Under the pieces are notes generated by a model. The model was not told where the DNA came from. It ran no database searches and was given only the letters and a program-made list of their open reading frames with translations. This document shows positions 19,181 to 21,160 of a stretch of DNA of 64,000 nt, in pieces (within the stretch, counting starts at the first letter, position 1; every line of letters begins with the position of its first letter). The stretch is from positions 1,860,001 through 1,924,000 of the forward strand of contig NZ_JALKAZ010000001.1 of the NCBI RefSeq assembly GCF_023016005.1. Reading direction: 5' to 3'. This DNA is from Erythrobacter sp. F6033 (GTDB taxonomy: Bacteria > Pseudomonadota > Alphaproteobacteria > Sphingomonadales > Sphingomonadaceae). A program made the position numbers and the translations under genes.

Positions 19181-19912
19181 CTATTTGGCCCAGTAAACAA
19201 GGTCGACTGCGGTCATCCCGCCTGGTCCTTCGCGGAAGTGCGCCACGAAATGTTCGGTGCGGCCATCTCCGACAATTGAATGCTCGGGCTGTTCATATGT
19301 CACCGGGCGGAGTCTAGCGCGGTCTGCACGGGTGAAATGATACCCCATCGCATCTTCGATATCGACAGGCGTGACATAACGGACAATGCGCACATTGCAG
19401 TCAGCATTTGATGAGCCAGCGGCTTGCTGGACCATCCCGTGAGGCATAACCGCCGATGGTCCGGGCATGTCGACTGACCAATTCAAACCCTCAGACAGCG
19501 AGCTGACGCATTCCTGCGGTCCGCCAACGGCGACTAGCATCGCATCGGCTTTGGTCAGTGCGGATAGATCTGCGGGGCCTGCATCACTCGACGGGAATGG
19601 CAATGCAGGGATTTGTCCTTCGGCAAGCAATTCGACACGGGCCGCATCGCGCGCACGGTTGGCAAGTTCGTCTGTTGCAACCAGAGGTGGCAGTGCGTGA
19701 TCGGAACGCAGTGTGAGCACCGCATTCGCCTCATTGCGATAGGCGAGATCAGGATCGACCATCAGTGGATCATTCAACGCCTTGGCCATCAACGGATCGG
19801 TTGCAACCACGCTTTGCTCGACCACTGTTTCGGCTTCAGGCGCGCAAGCAGACAGCGCCAAGCCCAGCAGAGCTGTTGAGCCAATGAAGACAATGCGGAT
19901 TTGTCGCGTGAA
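19181..19912 (-). CDS. Unknown lipoprotein
   Basis: From ATG 19912 the product has 243 residues. A lipoprotein signal ends at ALSAC, then the mature part contains two cysteines (ECVSS and DCNVR) that could pair in the periplasm. It starts with helices (LATDELANRARDAARVEL-like) and ends with beta-rich sequence. The arrangement recalls a CAP/SCP-type domain but I cannot assign it. It ends 8 bp from astD, tail to tail. A candidate small RNA ends 50 bp upstream of it. Confidence 0.65.
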   Translation of the reverse strand, partial: FTRQIRIVFIGSTALLGLALSACAPEAETVVEQSVVATDPLMAKALNDPLMVDPDLAYRNEANAVLTLRSDHALPPLVATDELANRARDAARVELLAEGQIPALPFPSSDAGPADLSALTKADAMLVAVGGPQECVSSLSEGLNWSVDMPGPSAVMPHGMVQQAAGSSNADCNVRIVRYVTPVDIEDAMGYHFTRADRARLRPVTYEQPEHSIVGDGRTEHFVAHFREGPGGMTAVDLVYWAK

Positions 19913-19963
19913 CATGGCCGCCTTTTGCCGCAACAAGGTTAACATTCGCTATGCCGGGCACGC

Positions 19964-20110
19964 AAAATGAAAACGCCCCCATGCCGCAAGGACATGAGAG
20001 CGCCTTCCGCGGTGGTGGATACCGCGCTTAGGCCGTTGGTGGGTTGGCCCAAGTTGGGAGGAGAAGGCACGCGGCGTAGGTGGGATTGCCCCGTGCCCCT
20101 CATTCGATAT
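19964..20110 (-). ncRNA. Candidate small RNA with serial C-rich hairpin loops and its own terminator
   Basis: Read on the minus strand, the gap holds four stems. H1 is GGCACG/CGTGCC (20097-20092 with 20071-20066), its loop including ATCCCACCTAC. H2 is GGCC/GGCC (20049-20046 with 20034-20031), loop AACCCACCAAC. H3 is CGCGGT/ACCGCG (20026-20021 with 20013-20008), loop ATCCACC. The fourth is a 10-bp terminator stem (20002-19993 with 19983-19974) followed by TTTTCATTTT. All three loops share a CCACC-type motif and CTCCTCCC lies between H1 and H2, resembling anti-Shine-Dalgarno small RNAs. The start is only approximate. Confidence 0.65.
19974..20002 (-). terminator. Rho-independent terminator of the candidate small RNA
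   Basis: On the minus strand CGCTCTCATG (20002-19993) pairs fully, with two G-U pairs, with CATGGGGGCG (19983-19974). A nine-base loop separates them and the T-rich run TTTTCATTTT (19973-19964) follows. It ends transcription before the lipoprotein gene at 19912. Confidence 0.75.
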
Positions 20111-20132
20111 GTTCATGTATAGAGGCATGAAC
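20111..20132. promoter_or_regulatory. Inverted repeat over a possible minus-strand -10 element
   Basis: GTTCATG (20111-20117) and CATGAAC (20126-20132) flank an 8-base centre. On the minus strand TATACA (20121-20116) could serve as a -10 about seven bases before the proposed RNA start. A TTGCAG lies 20 bases upstream, a poor -35 spacing. It may be an operator for the small RNA or for rarD. Confidence 0.4.
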
Positions 20133-20239
20133 CTGAACGACCTGCAATCAGGTCCGAAAGCATCGGTTCAGCCTTGTAGCGCGGTGTAAACCCGCCCGCG
20201 CTTGCGCTGAGCACTGGCGAAGCCTACGGGCCGTGCTTC

Positions 20240-21160
20240 ATGGCGACACCTCCCCGCACCTCCGCGCAAAGCACCGAACAGCCCTCCGGCTTACCAGCGG
20301 CTTTGGGCGCGTATCTGATGTGGGGCTTCCTGCCCCTTTATCTGCTTTTGGTGACGAGCGTGCCACCGTTTGAATTTGTTGGCTGGCGGATCATCTGGAC
20401 GCTGCCGTTTTGCCTGATCATCGTTGCCCTGCGGAAGCAGTTTCCAGCGTTGAAGGAAGCGCTCACCAACCGCCGGACGCTGCTTGCCTTGTTCGCCAGC
20501 GCCGTGCTGATCGCGATCAACTGGTTCGTCTACATCTGGGCGATCATGGAAAATCAGGTCTACGCCGCGAGCCTTGGCTATTACCTTAACCCGCTGCTCA
20601 ATGTGCTGCTCGGGACGGTGCTGCTAGGTGAGAAACTTTCGAGGTGGCAATGGCTCGCCGTCGCGATTGCGCTCACGGCAGTGGCTCTGTTGGCGGCGGG
20701 TGCGCTTACAACGCTCTGGATCAGCCTGAGTCTCGCTTTCAGCTTTGGGCTGTATGGCATTGTACGCAAACAGGTTAATGTCGGATCATTGCCCGGATTG
20801 ACCATCGAGAGCGCAATTCTACTGCTGCCCGCAGCCGGTATCGCGTGGTGGTATGCGCAAGCGCCCGCTGGTTCGGCGTTCGGTGATGACTGGTTTTTGA
20901 GCGGCGCGATCATATTCTCAGGCGTCGTAACAGCCGTACCGCTATTGCTGTTCGCGATCGCAGCCAAGCGGATGAATTATTCGACGCTCGGTTTCATCCA
21001 ATACCTCGCCCCGACGATCGTTTTCCTGCTCGGGCTCACGGTGTTCGGCGAGGAATTACGCCCCGTTCAACTCGGCAGTTTCCTGCTGATCTGGACGGCT
21101 GTGGCGATCTTTATGTTCGATCTGTGGGCGCGCAGCCGCAAAGCAAAAGCGGCTGCATAG
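20240..21160 (+). CDS. rarD: RarD-type EamA/DMT-superfamily transporter
   Basis: The 306-residue protein has ten hydrophobic helices. It opens with ALGAYLMWGFLPLYLLLV, then WFVYIWAIMENQVYAASLGY and ending YLAPTIVFLLGLTVFGEELR, all typical of RarD (named for chloramphenicol sensitivity). It is an inner membrane exporter or permease of unknown small molecules. Its stop is directly adjacent to the pyrC stop, tail to tail. Confidence 0.92.
   Translation: MATPPRTSAQSTEQPSGLPAALGAYLMWGFLPLYLLLVTSVPPFEFVGWRIIWTLPFCLIIVALRKQFPALKEALTNRRTLLALFASAVLIAINWFVYIWAIMENQVYAASLGYYLNPLLNVLLGTVLLGEKLSRWQWLAVAIALTAVALLAAGALTTLWISLSLAFSFGLYGIVRKQVNVGSLPGLTIESAILLLPAAGIAWWYAQAPAGSAFGDDWFLSGAIIFSGVVTAVPLLLFAIAAKRMNYSTLGFIQYLAPTIVFLLGLTVFGEELRPVQLGSFLLIWTAVAIFMFDLWARSRKAKAAA

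Follow-up and report, generated by a model that had tools for sequence, protein, structure and literature searches.

A 64,000-nucleotide stretch of the Erythrobacter sp. F6033 genome (the window, by which the whole stretch is meant) carries on its minus strand what looks like a conserved bacterial small RNA (sRNA) that matches no Rfam family. With a probability of roughly 0.6, this is the gene of a trans-acting, envelope-regulon-type sRNA that arose from the 3'UTR of a glycine-zipper gene, lost the protein part and pairs through CCCACC loops. The case draws on what can be read from the sequence: a fold with covariation, a single orthologous locus, an operator common to both forms of that locus, an open reading frame (ORF) that is present or absent while operator and hairpins are kept, and loops conserved within a large subclade. 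A wider reading, which we hold to be somewhat better than an even bet, is that a two-output stress gene for a surface protein and a 3'UTR sRNA has been stripped repeatedly to its noncoding half at one locus, with operator and CCCACC hairpins kept. The RNA and not the protein would then be what is selected, as the noncoding arm of an envelope regulon of the Sphingomonadaceae that is as yet undescribed and carries GTTCA-N18-TGAAC as its mark.

sRNAs derived from 3'UTRs are well known. To our knowledge, arguments for the passage from a 3'UTR tail to a free gene have come mostly from single cases. The 95 members examined at the present locus include both states and an intermediate judged by eye (locus L055), which makes it possible to map the change from tail to gene onto a phylogeny and to test it. 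The operator and RNA are also sequence features by which a possible envelope regulon could be traced in Erythrobacter and its relatives. What is new is how the locus has changed over time, together with the operator common to both forms.

The predicted RNA in the window

The features of the locus are as follows, in the order in which the minus strand is read.

20240..21160, plus strand: rarD-like EamA transporter (PF00892), the divergent neighbour marking the locus
20166..20170, minus strand: outer TGAAC element, 32 nt upstream of GTTCA
20111..20138, minus strand: putative operator/promoter GTTCA-N18-TGAAC (GTTCAGGTTCATGCCTCTATACATGAAC), with a -10-like TATACA at 20121-20116
19965..20110, minus strand: predicted sRNA of about 145 nt, placed from promoter position and terminator
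20061..20101, minus strand: hairpin 1 (variable), from the fold, with CCACC at 20083-20079 in its loop and an internal loop AAUCCCACCUAC
20063-20056, minus strand: linker CTCCTCCC, which joins hairpin 1, whose foot it overlaps, to hairpin 2
20027..20053, minus strand: hairpin 2 (core), CTTGGGCC / GGCCTAAG, loop AACCCACCAAC, CCACC at 20042-20038
20008..20026, minus strand: hairpin 3 (core), CGCGGT / ACCGCG, loop ATCCACC (AUCCACC in RNA), CCACC at 20018-20014
19969..20007, minus strand: intrinsic-terminator-like stem-loop of 17 pairs, followed by ATTTTG; tail ATTTTGCG
19181..19915, minus strand: lipoprotein gene 3' of the terminator, start at 19915 or 19945, outside the unit

Between rarD and the lipoprotein gene, the minus strand folds into three hairpins displaying CCACC, a C-rich linker and a terminator-like stem, much as an earlier note on this DNA had described. 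The 191-nt fold has a predicted energy of -81.3 kcal/mol, against -63.1 +/- 4.4 for dinucleotide shuffles, none of 200 reaching so low a value (z -4.17). The start of the sRNA, directly 3' of the operator, is placed from the position of the -10 element. The same note had called the terminator textbook with a T-run; the 17-pair stem is indeed terminator-like, but the first Ts of the T-run GCGTTTTCATTTTG sit within the stem, which is not quite textbook. It did not recognise the RNA as 6S, SRP or tmRNA, and the Rfam covariance models agree: neither the window nor any of 20 homologous loci reached the gathering score of a family; in the window stretch, at E up to 10, there were just three weak and unrelated matches.

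The product of the lipoprotein gene has no Pfam match. In the interval that separates the sRNA terminator from the lipoprotein start, the window has GTTAACCTT at 19943-19935, and five loci of the same genus (L207-L211) have TTAACCA(T/C) there on the sRNA strand. The motif resembles a CtrA half-site, and the stretch is perhaps the lipoprotein's own promoter region.

A family of homologues at one locus

Twelve of 61 genomes, counting the window's own, gave a match in a DNA search, and an RNA model (R1) was built from those 12 cores. Among 120 genomes, 73 of them in the window's genus, R1 matched 64, all within that genus; inspection of these same-genus matches covered the higher-ranked ones that were fetched. 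Across the family it matched 47 of 249 genomes in 22 of 96 genera, with at least two false matches (G133, G148) and eight left uninspected (G351, G265, G324, G198, G343, G296, G339, G218). A second model (R2), run on 246 genomes of the order, matched 36, every one of them a member of the same family. An exact DNA pattern recovered 19 stretches in named genomes, 17 of them with rarD and astD and 16 of these also with the operator. The stand-alone loci so found include Erythrobacter longus (DSM 6997, with the operator and these neighbours) and E. ani, and those linked to a glycine-zipper gene include Allopontixanthobacter. Pattern matches titled Nocardioides and Gemmatimonadetes, which have no rarD, astD or operator, were taken as chance.

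Of 98 RNA-search hits read, 95 were accepted: 75 of 76 in a first set, from which L092 was dropped, and 20 of 22 in a second, from which L198 and L199 were dropped. The three discarded hits have neither rarD, nor the operator, nor CCACC. The gene rarD lies beside 92 of the 95 accepted loci (72/75 and 20/20), a count to be read knowing that this neighbourhood also served as an acceptance criterion. Two same-genus loci (L009 and L034) have pyrC on the divergent side and neither rarD nor an exact operator, and L052 ends at a contig edge. For 39 stand-alone homologues, the predicted RNA is 100-163 nt long.

A separate check led by rarD took 25 genomes that had given no hit with the R models and found rarD in 20. 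Among the nine of these 25 that share the window's genus, rarD was present in five, each of which also has the operator and a CCCACC hairpin. In other genera, 15 loci were reached and seven have a glycine-zipper gene, with a CCCACC hairpin after the ORF in three and absent in four. Since four of these seven lack the hairpin, the CCCACC loop, on the sequences at hand, marks a large subclade and not the whole family.

Covariation and loop conservation

The stems covary among relatives, which the earlier note had named as a feature whose absence would count against its sRNA reading. In a structure-fitted alignment of 77 distinct homologues, 95.7% of base-pair cells are paired, compared with 45-56% when the structure is slid, and 349 cells are double-changed, compared with 86.9 +/- 8.2 when shuffled and at most 73 when slid. 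Double changes occur in 7 of 8 pairs of hairpin 2, 4 of 6 of hairpin 3 and 18 of 18 of the terminator. A free MAFFT alignment of 12 sequences likewise has compensatory double changes in 10 of 32 pairs. The conserved core is hairpins 2 and 3 with the terminator. Together with a promoter-like region and a terminator, these observations strengthen the reading as a structured, conserved sRNA gene.

The letters of the loops are kept as well. Among the 77 homologues, CCACC is present in hairpin 2 of 66 and in hairpin 3 of 55; both loops carry it in 44, one in 33, and none is without it altogether. Over 96 distinct accepted homologues, with L201 omitted here and from the tree as a near copy of L073, the classes are both loops in 52, hairpin 2 only in 29, hairpin 3 only in 15 and neither in 0, where 4.5 would be expected under independence (Fisher p 0.004, for sequences that are related). 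This count is biased, as CCACC loops were used to train R1 and are also missing from the three hits that were dropped. The loop of hairpin 1 is optional: CCACC occurs there in 13 of 44 stand-alone leaders. Of these leaders, 38 are at least 25 nt long, and 37 of the 38 fold at -6 kcal/mol or below (a value taken with no shuffle control); the other six are 4-18 nt. The linker CTCCTCCC, the truly anti-Shine-Dalgarno-like element, is present in the window as the earlier note had it, but recurs in the leader or linker of just 2 of 75 other loci scanned (3 of 76 in all), and is not conserved.

Two arrangements and the direction of change

In 47 of the 95 loci (31/75 and 16/20), the hairpins lie 3' of the stop codon of a glycine-zipper ORF. 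In the remaining 48 (44/75 and 4/20), the window's among them, tblastn finds no such ORF. The upstream ORF matches the glycine zipper PF05433 in L073, the sole locus given to Pfam, and looks secreted by eye. A conserved structured RNA between the stop codon of an mRNA and an intrinsic terminator is therefore a property of the linked loci and not of the window, where no glycine-zipper ORF was found ahead of the RNA. Over 41 linked loci, the hairpins are slightly more conserved than the ORF (identity 0.62 versus 0.59). In L055, the operator is followed by 120 nt and then by the hairpins, with no ORF match by tblastn; the ends of the 120 nt resemble, by eye, the leader and stop region of the glycine-zipper gene, and on that judgement L055 would be an intermediate between the arrangements.

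On a rarD+astD tree of 91 loci, the presence or absence of the ORF requires six changes, at least four of which are forced by well supported branches, and ORF-bearing loci occur in both halves of the tree. The tree has no outgroup, so the change count does not tell gain from loss. Repeated loss is nevertheless favoured, because it seems far less likely that one and the same ORF was gained repeatedly at this place, with the operator before it and the hairpins after it. Of 15 stand-alone genomes tested, 13 have a separate glycine-zipper gene next to MOSC and/or SDR genes and two show no other glycine-zipper gene; of 11 ORF-bearing genomes tested, 8 have it and three show the rarD-locus copy only. 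Since most genomes of both kinds keep the separate paralogue, the ORF was probably lost and not moved, and relocation of the gene is judged unlikely.

The operator and a putative regulon

The variants GTTCA or ATTCA-N18-TGAA[CT], with TA at the -10 place, are common to both arrangements. They lie ahead of the RNA in 44 of 48 stand-alone loci (40/44 and 4/4) and ahead of the glycine-zipper ORF in 43 of 47 linked loci (30/31 and 13/16). In the stand-alone form the operator directly precedes the RNA, 32-148 nt upstream of the core (40 of 44 loci), and in the linked form it ends 508-659 nt before the hairpins (30 loci). The exact operator is absent in four stand-alone loci (L009, L018, L029, L034). 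The outer TGAAC, at a spacing of 31-32 nt, occurs in 8 of the first 12 homologues. A small ORF opening at the ATG of TATAnATGAAC was discarded, as that ATG is not kept in the linked form.

The exact dyad GTTCA-N18-TGAAC occurs four times in the window's genome, where about three (2.9) would be expected by chance for ten fixed letters in 3.04 Mb. Since this count is near chance, the case for a regulon rests on recurrence of the dyad at the same genes across genomes. Two of the three other dyads in the window's genome precede genes for secreted proteins, namely a glycine-zipper paralogue and a 186-aa protein. The latter belongs to a family of secreted-looking proteins of about 180 aa, for which the L013 copy gave no Pfam match. 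A dyad stands 59-134 nt before genes of this family in 11 of 20 chosen stretches. At the MOSC/SDR locus, 12 of 22 places have one no more than 500 nt upstream of the glycine-zipper paralogue. Elsewhere, dyads occur as single cases before other secreted-looking proteins and in some instances before ordinary genes. The spacing of upstream motifs by 10-11 nt hints at an OmpR-type response regulator; ChvI was rejected for the part, its published motif being unlike GTTCA-N18-TGAAC.

Several further observations concern these matches. Copies of the ~180-aa protein were seen in L013 (dyad 1501-1528, gene 1621-2181), L093-L098, L104-L107 and L109; most end in an IRGLR-like motif, and five genomes have two tandem dyads 65 nt apart. 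In a genome of another family, three identical pattern matches lie 1,263 bases apart (G040:C1:959570, 960833 and 962096), which suggests a tandem-repeated gene.

Proposed mechanism, targets and alternatives

In the proposed mechanism, a regulator would bind GTTCA-N18-TGAAC, which overlaps the promoter, and so control the RNA. A terminator of its own would end the transcript at about 145 nt, and two or three of its hairpins would offer CCCACC loops that pair with GGUGGG-like sites in some mRNAs, altering their translation or decay. In the ancestral form, a glycine-zipper surface-protein mRNA controlled by this operator would have carried the hairpins as its 3'UTR, and a single unit could, like cpxP-CpxQ, have yielded protein and sRNA together. 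The lineage of the window would then have lost the protein part and kept operator and sRNA. We infer that the RNA is transcribed, that the 3'UTR form is processed, that change ran towards loss, that pairing is the mode of action and that the signal comes from the envelope.

The earlier note had proposed that the loops are anti-Shine-Dalgarno (SD) elements directed at GGAGG or GGUGG start regions. The comparison of start regions used 464 kb of the window's genome, in which a script had predicted 391 genes with starts chosen partly by SD-like motifs, which flatters GGAGG. GGTGG occurred 9 times in the SD zone versus 10 in the control zone, and GGAGG 24 times versus 1. With starts chosen free of SD motifs, GGTGG occurred 9 versus 6 times (374 genes) or 5 versus 7 (376), and GGAGG 15 versus 3 (374) or 10 versus 3 (376). 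By none of the three start choices is GGTGG enriched, whereas GGAGG is by all three. For TonB receptors, GGTGG was found in 0 of 26 start regions at script-chosen starts (of which at least two, in L133 and L155, look doubtful) and somewhere in 6 of 26 over the wider region from -60 to +330 of the open frame. In the parental mRNA, GGTGGG was seen once where 3.0 were expected, an avoidance that is not significant; among ten words tried there, GTGGG was lowest, at 7 versus 13.4, with 4 of 200 shuffles as low. These start-site, TonB-receptor and parental-mRNA tests found no convincing mRNA target.

One side observation concerns an M48 protease, for which 28 loci were fetched, 15 scripted and 12 had a visible start. 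GGTGG stands shortly upstream of the start, by eye, in 6 of the 12 orthologues (L227, L228, L230, L233, L235, L238). This lead proves nothing, because the gene was picked post hoc for having GGTGG there in the window's genome.

Judged by the analogy of other envelope-linked sRNAs, pairing with specific mRNAs appears the likeliest mode of action, and the main rival is that the repeated CCCACC loops are a decoy titrating an RNA-binding protein, with the loop number of one to three tuning capacity. Such a decoy would suit loops that are often exactly CCCACC on different stems, that either hairpin may carry, and whose complement GGTGG is not a start-site motif in the window's genome. We nevertheless think it unlikely: with both core loops in 44 of 77 homologues and one in 33, the copies are few for titration. 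We know of no candidate protein for such loops. Repeated identical loops would also suit a sponge for another sRNA carrying GGUGGG, an idea that we rate as very unlikely. The general anti-SD role could appeal to the C-rich loops and to CTCCTCCC in the window; given the start-site counts, the TonB-receptor result and the rarity of CTCCTCCC, it was dropped as highly improbable.

Two other explanations would spare the RNA any action in trans. The hairpins might be plain 3'UTR and terminator structure shielding the glycine-zipper mRNA from decay, as their place after the ORF stop and before a terminator-like stem in 47 of 95 loci would allow. That is improbable when the 48 loci with no ORF to protect keep hairpins and loops, 44 of them with the operator, and when the loop letters are kept beyond the stems. 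They might instead be the 5' leader (attenuator) of the lipoprotein gene, which is on the same strand with its two possible starts 24-54 nt downstream; but a strong terminator-like stem intervenes, and the downstream genes of 75 loci include the lipoprotein in 55 (tblastn), many others having astD on the opposite strand within about 150 nt. On that survey, the leader was rejected as the least probable of the explanations weighed.

Comparison with known systems

Among the open-licence PMC titles and abstracts that were listed, none names an RNA of this kind. Several known RNAs share parts of the arrangement. CsrB and RsmZ titrate CsrA with many GGA loops; the window family resembles them in repeating hairpins with one loop sequence, but its loops are CCCACC, not GGA, in one to three copies on fewer hairpins. 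CcsR RNAs have C-rich hairpin loops, CCUCCUCCC. CcsR1-4, the 'cuckoo' RNAs of the ccaF1 locus in Rhodobacter and other Alphaproteobacteria, share a transcript and a stress promoter with a small-protein gene that lies upstream of them (PMC10253847). The likeness lies in an RNA with C-rich loops downstream of a small-protein gene. In the window family, however, the upstream gene is a glycine zipper (PF05433, in L073) and not DUF1127, the core loops are CCCACC and not CCUCCUCCC, the promoter element is another one, and there is no Rfam match.

ChvR of Caulobacter is an envelope sRNA activated by ChvI that represses the TonB receptor ChvT, and the predicted ChvI motif is TTGC-N3-GCAA (PMC9731502). 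Both would be alphaproteobacterial sRNAs of an envelope regulon; the operator described here is unlike TTGC-N3-GCAA, however, and 0 of 26 TonB-receptor start regions fit the loops of the window RNA.

CpxQ offers a further parallel. The 3'UTR of the enterobacterial cpxP mRNA yields CpxQ, which places a protein and an RNA under one regulator, and CpxQ has been shown to be made, to be bound by Hfq and to pair (PMC4817254, PMC9438474). Host and parent gene are unrelated to those of the window RNA, which is known from sequence alone, and the two also differ in that, in the window family, many relatives have kept the RNA without the ORF. What they appear to have in common is an envelope-type gene, a conserved RNA in the 3'UTR of its mRNA and one regulator for both.
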